Assembly (NCBI RefSeq): GCF_021184045.1 | Contig: NZ_CP073710.1 | Coordinates: 186,001-250,000 of the forward strand | Origin: Methanococcoides orientis | GTDB taxonomy: Archaea > Halobacteriota > Methanosarcinia > Methanosarcinales > Methanosarcinaceae | Direction of reading: 5' to 3' | Length of the DNA: 64,000 bases | In this document: positions 22,592 to 28,071 of the stretch, piece by piece | Layout of the letters: every line of letters starts with the position of its first letter | Numbering within the stretch: position 1 is the first letter of the stretch | Position numbers and translations under genes: made by a program | Notes under the pieces: generated by a model | Told to the model about the DNA's origin: nothing | Databases searched by the model: none | Seen by the model: only the letters and a program-made list of their open reading frames with translations

Positions 22592-22679
22592 GCGGGGGTT
22601 GCCCAGCCAGGCCAAAGGCGCTAGGTTGAGGGCCTAGTCTCGTAGGAGTTCGTGTGTTCGAATCACACCTCCCGCACCA
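22592..22679 (+). tRNA. tRNA-Leu (GAG), copy 1
   Basis: A class II tRNA: acceptor GCGGGGG/CTCCCGC, anticodon stem CTAGG/CCTAG around TTGAGGG (anticodon GAG, reading CUC/CUU), a long variable arm and TTCGAAT T-loop. CCA is encoded at 22677-22679. It is the first of three identical copies. Confidence 0.96.
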
Positions 22680-22735
22680 TACCACTTTCCGGTAAAGACC
22701 GGAACAATACGGTCCTGAGATCTTTCAGGATGGTA
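22680..22735 (+). ncRNA. Structured spacer element, copy 1
   Basis: TACCA (22680-22684) can pair with TGGTA (22731-22735) and encloses two hairpins: TTCCGGT/ACCGGAA with an AAAG loop (22687-22704) and TCCTGA/TCAGGA with a GATCTT loop (22713-22730). It lies between tRNA copies, so it is a processing by-product or a small RNA. Function unknown. Confidence 0.45.
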
Positions 22736-22762
22736 ACTCGATAACTTAACAACAACCACTTT

Positions 22763-22850
22763 GCGGGGGTTGCCCAGCCAGGCCAAAGGCGCTAGGTTGA
22801 GGGCCTAGTCTCGTAGGAGTTCGTGTGTTCGAATCACACCTCCCGCACCA
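22763..22850 (+). tRNA. tRNA-Leu (GAG), copy 2
   Basis: Identical over its full length to the copy at 22592, including the encoded CCA (22848-22850). Confidence 0.96.
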
Positions 22851-22906
22851 TACCACTTTTCGGTAAAGACCGGAACAATGCGGTCCTGAGATCTTTCAGG
22901 ATGGTA
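22851..22906 (+). ncRNA. Structured spacer element, copy 2
   Basis: Same fold as the element at 22680. The first hairpin carries a C-to-T change (TTTCGGT against ACCGGAA) that turns a C-G pair into a U-G pair, so the stem is kept. The other changes lie outside the stems. Confidence 0.45.
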
Positions 22907-22933
22907 ACTTGATAACTTAACAACAACCACTTT

Positions 22934-23021
22934 GCGGGGGTTGCCCAGCCAGGCCAAAGGCGCTAGGTTGAGGGCCTAGTCTCGTAGGAGTTCGTGTGTT
23001 CGAATCACACCTCCCGCACCA
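22934..23021 (+). tRNA. tRNA-Leu (GAG), copy 3
   Basis: Identical to the two preceding copies with encoded CCA (23019-23021). It is followed by TTTTCTTATTCTATTATTC, a T-rich end, and not by the structured spacer. Confidence 0.96.
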
Positions 23022-23184: not shown

Positions 23185-25113
23185 TTATTCGTCTTCTTCG
23201 ATGTGCTCAGCAACACCCAGTACAACGATCTTTGCTTCTATCAGTGTATCAAGCCCTTCAAGAAGCACTTCATCCTTTTTGATGTCTATCTTAACTGAAT
23301 CCGGATCAAGATCAGCTTCTTTCATGTATTTGTAGATTGTATCTTTGCCAAGACTTATTGCATGTTCTACTGCATCTTCATATTCGTAGAAGTTCTCTCT
23401 TCCCTTTTCTGAATAGACATAGAACTCCCATTCCGGTGCGGCCATGGAAGCGGGGCGTATCAATATCTCTACCCTCCTTATTCCTTTTGCAGCTAATGCT
23501 CCCGCAGCATTACCCACATTTGCAAATTCCGGCAGGATGATTTCTGCATCTATCAGTTTCTTCATCTCTTCAAGATATGCTACCACAGGGCCGCCGATCA
23601 GCACTACCGGCACATGCACTTTGAACTGGATTGGTGATTCTACATCGAATATATTACGAATTTCCTCTCTTGATATCTTTTCGAGGAAGAATGAAACAAG
23701 GTCTGCTGCCATGTTCTTGGCAAATTCTCTCTTTACATAGGCAGCGAACTCATCTCCTTCCATCTTATAAAGGGGAGCCAGGTGCTCTGCACCGATGCGT
23801 GAAGCCTCAGCATTATATTCCGTATACTCTCCTAGCACATGCAGGGCGTCCGTGGGTGTGAAGCTGATGGGTTGTATCAGCCTTTTCTGCATGAGGTTAT
23901 CCAGATGTTTTGATGCCGGATATTTGTTGATACGCGAACGTATCTCCTTGAGTGATGTTGGTTCAGCAGGAATGGCATTGAGGATTTCTGTTTCCAGTTC
24001 GGTCAGCTCGAGTGGTTCATAGTCTGTCCTTATGTAGAACTTGGCGGGCTGGAAGTTCCTTCCCAGTAAAGCTTTTGAAGGCATTGGGTTGGTCGCGATC
24101 TGCTCGAGGAATTTTGGGAACTGTGCTGCTGCCCTGCATAGTGGTATGACCCTTCGCGGTCCGAAGTTTACCTTTCCTGAACCGATCCAGATATCACTAT
24201 CACCTCCGAGTGCAGAGGTTTCCATCCTTATGGCCTTGACTCTGGTCTTCCATCCACCCACTACAGCACCGGATTCACTCATTTCCGGGACACCGCTTCT
24301 TATAACGGACACGTCAGTACTTGTTCCGCCTACATCTATAACTGCACAAGTATCCCTTTTTGAAAGGAATGATGCGCCTACCAGACTCCCTGCAGGGCCT
24401 GAGAAGATGGACTCGATCGGCTTTTCCACTGCACTCTTTATCCCGGTTACTGACCCGTCACATTTGAGCATGAATATCTTGGCTTTCATACCTCTGTTCC
24501 TGATCTCAGTTTCCACACTGGACATGAACTTCTCTGTTATGGGCAACAACTGGGCGTTAAAGAATGCTGTGACAGCTCTCTCAAATGCTCCCAGATCCTG
24601 TGATAGTTCATGTGCACATACTACAGGCATGCCAGTGATATTCCTGATGATCTCCTTGACTCTCAGCTCATGTTCGTTGTTACGAATACTGAAATACGAG
24701 GAAACTGCAAAGGCTGAAACATTCTCTTTTGCCTTCCGGGCAAATTCTTTCACTGCATTCTCATCAAGGGGTTCTGCTTCACCACCTCTGTGGTTGTGTC
24801 CGCCTTTGACCTGCACAAAGTGTTCTGTGGGAAGGTCATTGCTGATAAAAAAGTCCCCTACGAGGATGAGTCCAACCGGGAATCCTGTTCCTTCCAGGAT
24901 GGTGTTGGTGGAAAGTGTTGTGGATACCGATACAACATCCACTTGTGAAAGTATGTCCTGATCAACTCCGTCGAGTGCTTCCCTGATGCCCTCCAGTGGA
25001 TCTGGATATGTTGTCAAGGCCTTATAGGATGCAATTATGGCATCATCTGAGCTTCTTACAACTATGGCATCTGTATATGTGCCACCTGCATCAATTCCAA
25101 GATTTAATTTCAT
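23185..25113 (-). CDS. Hydantoinase/oxoprolinase-type (HyuA-like) ATPase
   Basis: A 642-residue protein of the HyuA/acetone carboxylase beta/5-oxoprolinase family in the actin-like ASKHA ATPase fold. The phosphate-1 motif GIDAGGTYTDAIVV (6-19), SVSTTLSTNTILEG, IFSGPAGSLVGA and the phosphate-2 motif IDVGGTSTDVSVI are present. Family enzymes use ATP to open or carboxylate small amides, ketones or N-methylhydantoin; no HyuB-type partner is nearby. Unlike RamA-type corrinoid activases it has no ferredoxin cysteine motif. It lies 41 bases after the AAA+ gene, as the third gene of an operon with an MtmB homologue, so a role with that methyltransferase is inferred. Confidence 0.85.
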   Translation of the reverse strand: MKLNLGIDAGGTYTDAIVVRSSDDAIIASYKALTTYPDPLEGIREALDGVDQDILSQVDVVSVSTTLSTNTILEGTGFPVGLILVGDFFISNDLPTEHFVQVKGGHNHRGGEAEPLDENAVKEFARKAKENVSAFAVSSYFSIRNNEHELRVKEIIRNITGMPVVCAHELSQDLGAFERAVTAFFNAQLLPITEKFMSSVETEIRNRGMKAKIFMLKCDGSVTGIKSAVEKPIESIFSGPAGSLVGASFLSKRDTCAVIDVGGTSTDVSVIRSGVPEMSESGAVVGGWKTRVKAIRMETSALGGDSDIWIGSGKVNFGPRRVIPLCRAAAQFPKFLEQIATNPMPSKALLGRNFQPAKFYIRTDYEPLELTELETEILNAIPAEPTSLKEIRSRINKYPASKHLDNLMQKRLIQPISFTPTDALHVLGEYTEYNAEASRIGAEHLAPLYKMEGDEFAAYVKREFAKNMAADLVSFFLEKISREEIRNIFDVESPIQFKVHVPVVLIGGPVVAYLEEMKKLIDAEIILPEFANVGNAAGALAAKGIRRVEILIRPASMAAPEWEFYVYSEKGRENFYEYEDAVEHAISLGKDTIYKYMKEADLDPDSVKIDIKKDEVLLEGLDTLIEAKIVVLGVAEHIEEDE

Positions 25114-25154
25114 ATTTATCTCCGTTATTTAAGTTACGCGAAATTATGCTGGCA

Positions 25155-26366
25155 TCACAATTCTTTAAGCCTGTAGTCCATATAGAGTATGTCTTCTATC
25201 TTCTTTGGATTTTTCCTGATTGATACCAGACGTGTCTTTCCATACCTTCCTCTGCTACGCACAGGTGCTGAGATAATTCCTCTCATATCGAATTCTGAGA
25301 CAATTCCTGAAACGCTTGTGCGTCCCAGGGGGTTAGTGCCTATACGATCACAAAACTTCCTGTATAGTGTATCTATCTGGCCTGTTGTGATCTTATCATT
25401 CAGCTCCTCGCTAAGTCTAATGATGCTGAGCAGTACAAGCTTTGAATTGATTGGCAGATTTTCCAGTGAGGTGAATAGGTCCTTTTCTCCCATCACTTCA
25501 TTTGCGAGCAGAACATGTTTTTCAGTCACTCTTTCCTCATTCGAGATATCTGCGATAGCACCCGCCCTTTCAAGCAAAGTCAGGGCTTTTCCGCAATCAT
25601 GTTCAGCTCCTGATATCTCTGCACATAGTGGTACTACTCCCCCATCCACAACATCTTCCACAAATGCAATTCTACAGCGGTCATTCAGTATCTGCTCAAC
25701 CTCTTCCTCGTTGTAAGGTGGGAATACTATGTTCCTATACTGGAGTGCCGAAAGAATAGTATTCTCGGCCTTCCCGTAAAAGAAGATGTCATTACTAATT
25801 CCAATGATGCCTATGAATATGTCTTCTTCGATGCTCATATTCTCACCGGCATGGCTGAGTTCATTGAGTATATTTTTGTCTTTCAGAGTCTCGATCTCAT
25901 CAAGGACCACAATTATTGTAGTCCTCTTTTCGTTCAGCGCTTTCCATAATGCTCTATAGTATTTTCCCATTGAGAGTCCCGTTCTTGGAACTTCTATTTC
26001 GGGTGATATCTTGCTCAGTATCTCAAGTATGATCTTACTGGTTGTGCTGATCTTCCGACAATTTATGAAGACCGGGACAACGCTAAGGCCTTTCATCTCA
26101 ATGTTAGCGCTCAGTTTTTTCAGGACAAATTTCACAATAGTTGTCTTACCTGTCCCTTTAATTCCGGATATCAGTACATTAGCAGGCTCCCCTCGGTGGA
26201 GAACAGGTCTCATCAGTGAAGCAAGTTCTGTTACCTGCTTTTCTCTTCCAACAAGCCTGTCCGGAAGATGCCTTGGAGAAAGCGCTGCTCTGTTCCTGAA
26301 TATCTGGATCCCATCTGTTCCGAAAATATCATTCATGTTGAGTCCACAGTTATCATTCGATTCCAC
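25155..26366 (-). CDS. Orc1/Cdc6-type AAA+ ATPase
   Basis: A 403-residue protein resembling archaeal Orc1/Cdc6 initiators. Walker A is GIKGTGKTT (68-76), Walker B is VVLDEIE, sensor-1 is near IGIIGISND, and the C-terminal about 100 residues look like a winged helix (TSVSGIVSEFDMRGIISAPV). GTG 26366 overlaps the end of the MtmB-like gene by 14 bases; ATG 26336 is an alternative. In archaea such paralogues initiate replication or act as regulators. Here it lies inside a methyltransferase operon, so a regulatory job is as likely as an origin function. Confidence 0.85.
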   Translation of the reverse strand: MESNDNCGLNMNDIFGTDGIQIFRNRAALSPRHLPDRLVGREKQVTELASLMRPVLHRGEPANVLISGIKGTGKTTIVKFVLKKLSANIEMKGLSVVPVFINCRKISTTSKIILEILSKISPEIEVPRTGLSMGKYYRALWKALNEKRTTIIVVLDEIETLKDKNILNELSHAGENMSIEEDIFIGIIGISNDIFFYGKAENTILSALQYRNIVFPPYNEEEVEQILNDRCRIAFVEDVVDGGVVPLCAEISGAEHDCGKALTLLERAGAIADISNEERVTEKHVLLANEVMGEKDLFTSLENLPINSKLVLLSIIRLSEELNDKITTGQIDTLYRKFCDRIGTNPLGRTSVSGIVSEFDMRGIISAPVRSRGRYGKTRLVSIRKNPKKIEDILYMDYRLKEL

Positions 26367-27723
26367 AGTATTTTCTAACTTCAGCGAATACTTCCTTGTA
26401 GAGTTTCATATATTCATCTGTAGGCTTCATTTCATACTCTGATTTCACTTTATAGCATTCGTTGAAAGGTTTGCCTTCGGGAGCATGTACCAACAGATTC
26501 TCATATTTCCTATAGATGTTACGGGCAGCCTCATCTGCTTCTAAAAGTGACAGATCGGTTGCCATGTGTGCAACTTCTCCCATAAACCTGGATTCAAGTC
26601 CTGTGGAGTGATCGGTACCTGCTCCGCGGGCACCTACCGGTCCGATCAGCATGTCCCTTCCACAAACCGTATCTCCTATGGCCTGTGCAGCGGTCTCATA
26701 GAACATCATGTCAGTGCAGCATCCTGCAAGGTTCCAGTAATATCTTCCTATGTGATGGTGCATGTTGCGTGAAATGGCAAGGGATGACAGGTTAGAACCC
26801 CACATGATCTCTTTTGTTGAGGATGAATTGGTATTCACATGGACTGCACCGGAAACGTGTAAACTAGCACCTGTGATTATCTTTGACTGGATGGTCTCTG
26901 CAACATCAACGATAGCAAGTCCTTCGGGTGAGCCGATACCTGTTCCTCCAAAGACCGGACACTGGCCGCTCAGAAAATGGTTTCCGTGCTCAAGGTGGAA
27001 TATGGATTTGTAGAATGTCTCATAGTCGGTCTTAAGCTCATCCAGCTGGTAGGCCTCCTGGACATCTGCACTGGAGTACAGTTCATCGGAAGAAACCAGC
27101 ATGTATGCCTGTGAGACGGTTGGTGTGCCCGGTCCCATCAATGCAAGACCTTCACGTCCTGCAAGTTTTGTTGCGAGCCTTTCCTCTCTTGCTTCCTTCA
27201 GTGCAGCAAGCATCTCAAAGGGTGTTTTCCCGCGGATTCCTTTACCTCCCATCTTTTCAAGTGCGCCTGCATATATGCCCTGCACAATAGGCTCCATGGC
27301 AGAACTCAAATGAACCTCAAGGAAGTTTTCCTCGGAAACCGTACCTCCCATAGGACCTCCGATTATGACCGGTGGCTCAGAGTCCATAATGTACCTTAAT
27401 GGAACTGTTACCTTTTCGTTCTTCCTTCCGATCTCAAGCGTTTCGGAAGTGTTCAGGGACTTTACAATATCCTCTTCTTCGATCTGTATCGCTCTCTTTG
27501 TGTCAATACAGTATATGCCCACAGATGTCAATAGCTGAACTGCAGCTTCAAATACGGAGTCTGCAAGGCTCGTATCTATTGGTACAATACTTTCTCCGTC
27601 ATATTTGATATCGAATTCTTCCGCCAGTTCCTGTGACTTCATGAAGACTTCCATATCATGTTCATTTTCTGACTTCTCTTCGCCTGTGGTGGCAGATCTG
27701 AGATATTTGTAGATGTTGTTCAT
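26353..27723 (-). CDS. MtmB-family methyltransferase lacking pyrrolysine
   Basis: A 456-residue homologue of monomethylamine:corrinoid methyltransferase (458 residues in Methanosarcina barkeri). Matching segments include GIYCIDTKRAI, GGPMGGTVSEENF, AGREG...GPGT, CPVFGG and IVDVAETI. In MtmB the Pyl codon (UAG, residue 202) lies in the AGRPGMGV-Pyl-GPET context; here the equivalent is AGREGLAL-Met-GPGT with ATG at 27136-27138 (Met196), and the frame has no amber codon. No corrinoid protein gene is adjacent. The substrate is unknown; methylamine itself seems unlikely without Pyl. I use ATG 27723 with AAAGGAGTC upstream; a longer TTG start at 27783 lacks a site. Confidence 0.9.
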   Translation of the reverse strand: MNNIYKYLRSATTGEEKSENEHDMEVFMKSQELAEEFDIKYDGESIVPIDTSLADSVFEAAVQLLTSVGIYCIDTKRAIQIEEEDIVKSLNTSETLEIGRKNEKVTVPLRYIMDSEPPVIIGGPMGGTVSEENFLEVHLSSAMEPIVQGIYAGALEKMGGKGIRGKTPFEMLAALKEAREERLATKLAGREGLALMGPGTPTVSQAYMLVSSDELYSSADVQEAYQLDELKTDYETFYKSIFHLEHGNHFLSGQCPVFGGTGIGSPEGLAIVDVAETIQSKIITGASLHVSGAVHVNTNSSSTKEIMWGSNLSSLAISRNMHHHIGRYYWNLAGCCTDMMFYETAAQAIGDTVCGRDMLIGPVGARGAGTDHSTGLESRFMGEVAHMATDLSLLEADEAARNIYRKYENLLVHAPEGKPFNECYKVKSEYEMKPTDEYMKLYKEVFAEVRKYCGIE

Positions 27724-27773
27724 TGTATTGACTCCTTTGTTTTTCACTCGTGGATCTGGTCTATTTGTAGAAT

Positions 27774-27864
27774 TTCCATGCAAATGCTTTCTATACCTAT
27801 ATTGACATGGAACTTTATATATAGTTTTCCATGTTTCTGAATTCTAACCATTATTGACATGGAA
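27774..27864 (-). promoter_or_regulatory. Promoter of the MtmB-like operon with four half-sites
   Basis: On the minus strand GGAAAA (BRE, 27825-27830) and TATATATAAAG (27812-27822) form a strong archaeal promoter about 90 bases before the ATG at 27723. Around it lie four copies of TTCCATG or its complement CATGGAA at 27774, 27806, 27827 and 27858, alternating in direction. Copies 2 and 3 touch the TATA and BRE, as expected for a repressor or autoregulator. The ends of some copies (TGGAAAC) resemble part of the Orc1/Cdc6 origin-recognition box. Confidence 0.55.
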
Positions 27865-27990: not shown

Positions 27991-28071
27991 ATGGATGATT
28001 TCTTTACAGAATTAGTAAACAGGGCAAGATACTATGAACAATTCGAAGAATTCGTAAGAGCACACAAATGA
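27991..28071 (+). CDS. Small protein of 26 residues, hypothetical
   Basis: ATG 27991 to TGA 28071 reads MDDFFTELVNRARYYEQFEE then FVRAHK. GAGGTGAA lies six bases ahead and a promoter-like region ahead of that, and a structured T-rich end follows, so the signals of a real small gene are complete. The peptide is charged and could form one amphipathic helix. It is divergent from the MtmB-like operon. Small proteins of this size are known in Methanosarcina, but I recognise no family. Confidence 0.55.
   Translation: MDDFFTELVNRARYYEQFEEFVRAHK

Follow-up and report, generated by a model that had tools for sequence, protein, structure and literature searches.

A Cdc6-like gene and a repeated promoter site accompany a non-pyrrolysine MtmB-family methyltransferase in Methanococcoides

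Why should a gene of the Orc1/Cdc6 replication-initiator family stand between genes for a methyltransferase and a hydantoinase-type ATPase? The question arises in marine methanogenic archaea, from a 64,000-nucleotide stretch of Methanococcoides orientis DNA (the window; C1:186001-250000 of the 2.49 Mb genome G000), in which three intact open reading frames (ORFs) follow one another head to tail, all on the minus strand. The first, mtmB-like (26353..27723), encodes a 456-amino-acid non-pyrrolysine MtmB-family methyltransferase, assigned by Pfam (PF05369), alignment and a tree; the second, cdc6-like (25155..26366, as listed from a GTG start), encodes an Orc1/Cdc6-like AAA+ protein with a winged helix, assigned by Pfam, NCBIfam and alignment; and the third, hyuA-like (23185..25113), encodes a 642-amino-acid HyuA-type ASKHA ATPase, assigned by Pfam, PDB sequence matches, AlphaFold and Foldseek. 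An earlier note, made from the letters of this DNA alone, had described the same head-to-tail triple, and the Pfam and NCBIfam matches bear out all three families. We find it somewhat probable that these genes form a self-regulated corrinoid methyltransferase cassette with a Cdc6-like switch, and the evidence begins with a repeated site in the mtmB promoter that co-occurs with the cdc6-like gene.

The gene triple and its promoter site

The earlier note had made its account depend on the three genes being found together elsewhere. Among 186 genomes of the order Methanosarcinales, 10 from two genera have the full triple with its order unchanged, comprising 9 of 11 Methanococcoides genomes and Methanohalophilus G106; G097 has two copies, one of them carrying a frameshifted cdc6. 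The close MtmB clade, at 59-100% identity and without TAG, is present in 47 of the 186 genomes, drawn from Methanococcoides, Methanolobus, Methanohalophilus, Methanosalsum, Methanohalobium and their relatives, and was not found in Methanosarcina, some of these genus assignments being deduced from named loci. A close Cdc6-like protein (at least 48%) is encoded in 12 genomes, with one more distant copy on a plasmid, and the roughly 12 genomes with the close protein all carry the close MtmB clade. Variants of the arrangement occur in G077, from a third genus, where the order is mtmB, an MttC-type corrinoid protein gene, a scrap of hyuA, cdc6 and hyuA (on two apparently overlapping contigs), and in Methanolobus bombayensis, where cdc6 and a corrinoid gene are divergently oriented and mtmB follows the latter. 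One supported clade of the tree unites 13 of the 14 cdc6-linked mtmB genes, with that of M. bombayensis branching apart. The interval between tRNA-Leu and uppS in M. burtonii (G091) holds only a decayed hyuA pseudogene, with mtmB, cdc6 and the promoter motif lost together. In some genomes the cassette occupies differing positions, and it therefore moves as a unit.

The promoter site, TCCATGTSAAnAnnGGT, usually occurs upstream of mtmB as two copies about 52 nt apart, with the TATA box between them. In the window, all on the minus strand, operator-like site 1 (TCCATGTCAATAATGGT, 27847..27863) is an exact match and is conserved in 12 of 13 Cdc6-linked promoters; site 2 (TCCATGTCAATATAGGT, 27795..27811), identified by motif search and alignment, lies 52 nt downstream; inverted half-sites ACATGGAAA (27826..27834) and GCATGGAAA (27773..27781) emerge from promoter comparison and alignment; and the TATA box, TATATATA (27816..27823), holds a conserved position between the operator-like sites. 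Allowing up to three mismatches, the motif is found in every one of 13 promoters of cdc6-linked mtmB genes, as 26 sites against 0.24 expected from all the shuffled promoters together, and in none of 19 promoters of mtmB orthologues without cdc6. The two sites are 52-53 nt apart in Methanococcoides and 49-50 nt apart in the other two genera, and the G093 promoter retains a single one. An alignment of 10 promoters shows almost invariant TCCATGTCA and CATGGA blocks amid diverged flanks. Exact matches in G000 number only three, these being the two operator-like sites and one inside metK, and the operon-less genomes of M. burtonii and G090 contain none.

All three genes are under strong purifying selection, with ratios of nonsynonymous to synonymous substitution (dN/dS) of approximately 0.03-0.15 between species, and they are likely to be cotranscribed. 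The 41-base gap before hyuA described in the earlier note is correct. The 14-base overlap that it described between mtmB and cdc6 is probably spurious, because the GTG start is not conserved among the homologues, which in the alignment begin at MNDIF, G092 having a stop upstream of this point. The true start of the cdc6-like gene is probably the ATG at 26336, 30 nt downstream of the GTG, which would give a protein of 393 amino acids and a spacing of about 16 nt from the mtmB stop.

A decayed initiator as a putative switch

Judged by its profile matches, the operon protein belongs to the Orc1/Cdc6 family, with the AAA+, lid and C-terminal winged-helix regions all above family cut-offs (Pfam Cdc6_C, Cdc6_lid and AAA domains, including PF22703 and PF09079; NCBIfam TIGR02928 orc1/cdc6, 332 bits against a cut-off of 181). 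When aligned with canonical Cdc6-1, Cdc6-2 and a plasmid homologue, members of the operon clade keep Walker A and the winged helix, and mostly keep Walker B. The sensor-2 arginine motif, GDARRA in Cdc6-1, has become HDCGKA, HDSGKS, GNASKV or GYAYKA, the DPRV arginine is lost, and the sensor-1 asparagine is aspartate in several members. The sensor-2 and DPRV arginines, which we take to be the ATP-switch residues of the family, mark an active Orc1/Cdc6 initiator when intact, and both are retained in Cdc6-1, in the M. bombayensis homologue and in the initiator of the M. evestigatum plasmid, which is the best plasmid match of the Cdc6-like protein (41%). Hence the operon form, in which the ATPase arginines are lost and the DNA-binding part is kept, looks like a former initiator with a decayed ATP switch. 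There is precedent for a non-initiator Orc1 acting as a regulator in Orc1-2 of Saccharolobus (PMC9738581). The earlier note had proposed that the AAA+ protein regulates the operon, and the restriction of the motif to Cdc6-linked mtmB promoters, together with the lost ATPase residues, gives this role strong if indirect support at the level of sequence.

In the mechanism that we propose, the Cdc6-like protein would be a relative of replication initiators, probably of plasmid descent, that has been turned into a dedicated transcription switch. It would bind the TTCCATGT sites, paired on either side of the mtmB TATA box, and would most likely obstruct the transcription machinery until some signal caused it to let go. 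The MtmB-like enzyme would then take its methyl group from a small N-methylated or betaine-like compound, probably a charged one, and load it on a corrinoid protein whose gene lies elsewhere, from which MtbA would hand it to coenzyme M for methanogenesis. The HyuA-like protein, an ASKHA ATPase, would have an accessory part, in which it would most likely maintain or activate the methyl-transfer machinery, and not hydrolyse a cyclic amide. The more specific proposition, that a plasmid-type initiator has been domesticated as the switch of a single methyltransferase-operon promoter, reading origin-like repeats around its TATA box and travelling with the operon as a cassette, is one on which we are evenly divided.

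Several observations weigh against this account. Firstly, the 13 promoters carrying the motif are phylogenetically clustered, 11 being Methanococcoides-like (10 Methanococcoides copies and the metagenome-assembled genome EBM-47), and this kinship limits the motif statistics. Secondly, EBM-47 (G140) has mtmB and cdc6 with no hyuA in the cluster, and M. bombayensis, with a related cdc6 beside mtmC-mtmB, has no such motif upstream of cdc6/mtmC; the flank of the M. evestigatum plasmid cdc6 contains one loosely similar site, which was not counted. Thirdly, the motif loosely resembles repeats near the chromosomal cdc6-1 (TTTCCAAACGAAATAGAGGGGT and TGGAATGGAAATAGAGGGGT), and, with shuffle fractions of only 0.005-0.3, its likeness to the origin repeats of G000 is suggestive. 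Fourthly, the Methanococcoides operon includes neither a transporter nor a corrinoid gene, and G000 has no BCCT gene, so that any link to BCCT transport comes from relatives. Fifthly, the role given to the HyuA-like protein rests on its gene neighbourhood.

The ATPase, the locus and the methyltransferase

The HyuA-like protein has the Hydant_A_N and Hydantoinase_A domains of Pfam, and its AlphaFold model (predicted local distance difference test score 83.7) matches N-methylhydantoinase, acetone carboxylase beta, acetophenone carboxylase and caprolactamase in Foldseek, in agreement with the PDB sequence matches. A small helical, winged-helix-like insertion occupies residues ~372-417. G000 encodes five full-length members of the HyuA family, these being the focal protein and four paralogues of 52-69%. 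Elsewhere in the Methanosarcinales (G131, G119, G018 and G184), close paralogues adjoin pyrrolysine mttB in divergent orientation, and another is near a non-pyrrolysine mtmB in Methanosarcina G170. The earlier note had found the triple an unfamiliar combination, and this is answered in part, in that a HyuA gene beside a methyltransferase gene is a recurring arrangement. A paralogue of 63-69% identity in Methanococcoides and Methanohalophilus has a conserved neighbourhood of its own (L133, L144, L145 and L138), consisting of BioY/ECF transporter genes and a fructose-bisphosphate-aldolase-like gene.

The repeated adjacency of HyuA genes to corrinoid methyltransferase genes, and an ASKHA fold held in common, through weak matches, with RACo, GlmL and MutL, would also suit a corrinoid reactivase replacing RamA for this system, as the earlier note had raised. 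However, the RACo match is a generic ASKHA one (rank 29, TM 0.19), and the Pfam search found neither PF14574 nor Fer4 in the HyuA-like protein and no Fe-S motif, the lack of which the note had itself pointed out. Beside mttB, G000 encodes a canonical RamA that has 4Fe-4S domains of the ferredoxin type, and replacement of RamA was rejected on these grounds; we consider a reactivase unlikely.

A different reading concerns the locus as a whole, and takes the Cdc6-like gene and its repeats to be a secondary origin left by an integrated plasmid, with the operon neighbours incidental. Orc1/Cdc6 genes normally adjoin origin repeats, the nearest plasmid relative of the protein is a replication initiator, the locus adjoins a tandem tRNA-Leu array, and there is the weak likeness of the motif to the repeats near cdc6-1. 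Against this, the repeats, although they are like origin recognition boxes (ORB-like), lie upstream of mtmB on either side of a TATA box that itself precedes site 2 by ~12 nt, and there are usually just two of them at near-fixed spacing; the protein lacks ATPase residues that initiators retain; in two genera the unit has stayed linked to mtmB and hyuA; the locus is dispensable, having decayed in M. burtonii; and the window has no lasting switch in GC skew, the change of sign near 22-26 kb following gene orientation and then returning. A secondary origin is disfavoured because of the promoter geometry, the decayed ATPase, this dispensability and the skew, and we hold it to be decidedly unlikely.

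The hypothesis favoured by the earlier note assigned chemistry to the ATPase, such that the HyuA-like protein would activate or open an N-methylated cyclic amide or urea-like substrate and the MtmB-like enzyme would demethylate it. As weighed here, the activation would be an ATP-dependent phosphorylation, and the compound a urea, a cyclic compound or an amide bearing an N-methyl group. The ATPase domains are indeed kept, and the fold is like those of N-methylhydantoinase and caprolactamase subunit A. Yet ATP-dependent hydantoinases need a HyuB subunit, and in none of the genomes does the operon include a HyuB partner. The sole HyuB of G000 is part of a separate, fused, oxoprolinase-like ORF of 1208 amino acids, and a HyuB match is likewise present in M. 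burtonii, from which the operon has been lost. Several HyuA paralogues, moreover, adjoin pyrrolysine mttB, the substrate of which is a simple methylamine. Hydantoinase-type chemistry was rejected because HyuB is missing, and activation of an amide or urea is very improbable. Therefore, given the absence of HyuB, the adjacency to mttB and mtmB, and the presence of RamA elsewhere, we see the HyuA-like protein as an accessory to methyl transfer within the cassette.

The methyltransferase matches PF05369 along almost its whole length (E=1.9e-161, 538 bits against a gathering score of 25, positions 2-448 of 450), and its gene has no in-frame TAG. Aligned with pyrrolysine MtmB, it has Met for Pyl202, Gly for Glu259 and Tyr for Gln333, with Glu229 kept; in MtmB structures that have been published, such residues handle the pyrrolysine-amine adduct. 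Another non-pyrrolysine MtmB homologue from Methanococcoides, the tetramethylammonium/choline methyltransferase MtqB, was reported in 2026 (PMC13044021). Comparisons with it used the MtqB-like protein of G000 (P0005) as a stand-in for MtqB; the genes that probably encode MtqBC in G000 lie at C1:302596, the corrinoid gene directly upstream, as reported for mtqCB. An EamA-type permease gene is divergent from these genes (G000:C1:302596-304600, locus L005). The focal enzyme is only 30% identical to the MtqB-like protein, has Gln-Cys where the latter has Met-Cys, and falls in a different, well-supported clade; it therefore represents a separate, uncharacterised clade. That it is another MtqB is the least probable of these alternatives, since the two have in common that they are non-pyrrolysine MtmB homologues in Methanococcoides, whereas clade and pocket, including the change of a conserved MtqB Met to Gln, speak against it, the MtqB-like protein has the adjacent corrinoid gene, and only MtqB was found among non-pyrrolysine methyltransferases on tetramethylammonium, choline or trimethylamine (PMC13044021).

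As for the substrate of the proposed cassette, our guess is that it may be a charged N- or S-methyl compound, such as a betaine-like one. In the sister MtmB clade a BCCT betaine-type transporter gene is divergent beside mtmB in five loci, with an MFS-type transporter in Methanosalsum. G000 has 11 corrinoid-domain genes. The best candidate partner of the MtmB-like enzyme would be the orphan corrinoid protein at C1:1084627, which is 71% identical to the mtmB-adjacent one of M. bombayensis; the corrinoid protein of the G077 cluster is of MttC type. The C1:1084627 gene (locus L182: 5193-5852) adjoins SSF symporter and Fae genes, and has no methyltransferase gene of its own. In locus L141 of Methanosarcina G170, two differing non-pyrrolysine MtmB genes, one of them a very divergent third type, are clustered with corrinoid, HyuA and permease genes.

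Two further features border the triple. On the plus strand, positions 22592-23021 of the window hold three tRNA-Leu(GAG) genes, arrayed in tandem with a unit of 171 nt, and M. burtonii has two in the same place. A 26-codon ORF, MDDFFTELVNRARYYEQFEEFVRAHK (27991-28071, plus strand), is conserved beside the operon in most Methanococcoides loci and travels with the cassette at other genomic positions (L038 and L039). It is also kept in M. burtonii, where the operon has decayed, and a diverged form adjoins uppS in Methanohalophilus.

Significance and comparison with known systems

If this account is true, a replication initiator has taken on the regulation of metabolism through a defined operator that can be tested, which would account for the control of the methyltransferase. 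The enzyme belongs to a second widespread clade of non-pyrrolysine MtmB proteins (the 47 genomes above), set apart from MtqB and pointing to an unrecognised methane precursor, and the role of HyuA-like ATPases in methylotrophic methanogens becomes testable.

Each component has a known counterpart from which it departs. Pyrrolysine MtmB, the monomethylamine methyltransferase, belongs to the same family over its full length and has Glu229 in common with the focal enzyme; where it has Pyl, Glu259 and Gln333, the focal enzyme has Met, Gly and Tyr. MtqB/MtqC of Methanococcoides methylutens Q3c (PMC13044021) likewise involves a non-pyrrolysine MtmB homologue in the same genus, and corrinoid-dependent methyl transfer would be expected, by analogy, of both. 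However, the pocket residues are Cys-Met-Cys in the MtqB-like protein and Gly-Gln-Cys in the focal enzyme, and the focal mtmB of Methanococcoides has associated cdc6 and hyuA genes and no adjacent corrinoid gene. The HyuA, acetone carboxylase beta and caprolactamase alpha family has the N-terminal and ATPase domains and, in the predicted model, the overall fold of the HyuA-like protein, which differs in its winged-helix-like insertion, its lack of a HyuB partner and its linkage to methyltransferase genes. Finally, the DNA-damage-response regulator Orc1-2 of Saccharolobus islandicus (PMC9738581) has the same Orc1/Cdc6 architecture, which serves transcription control there and would do so here. 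Orc1-2 is a global regulator that needs ATP hydrolysis, whereas the Cdc6-like protein, with its degraded ATPase residues, would act on one promoter, that of its own operon.

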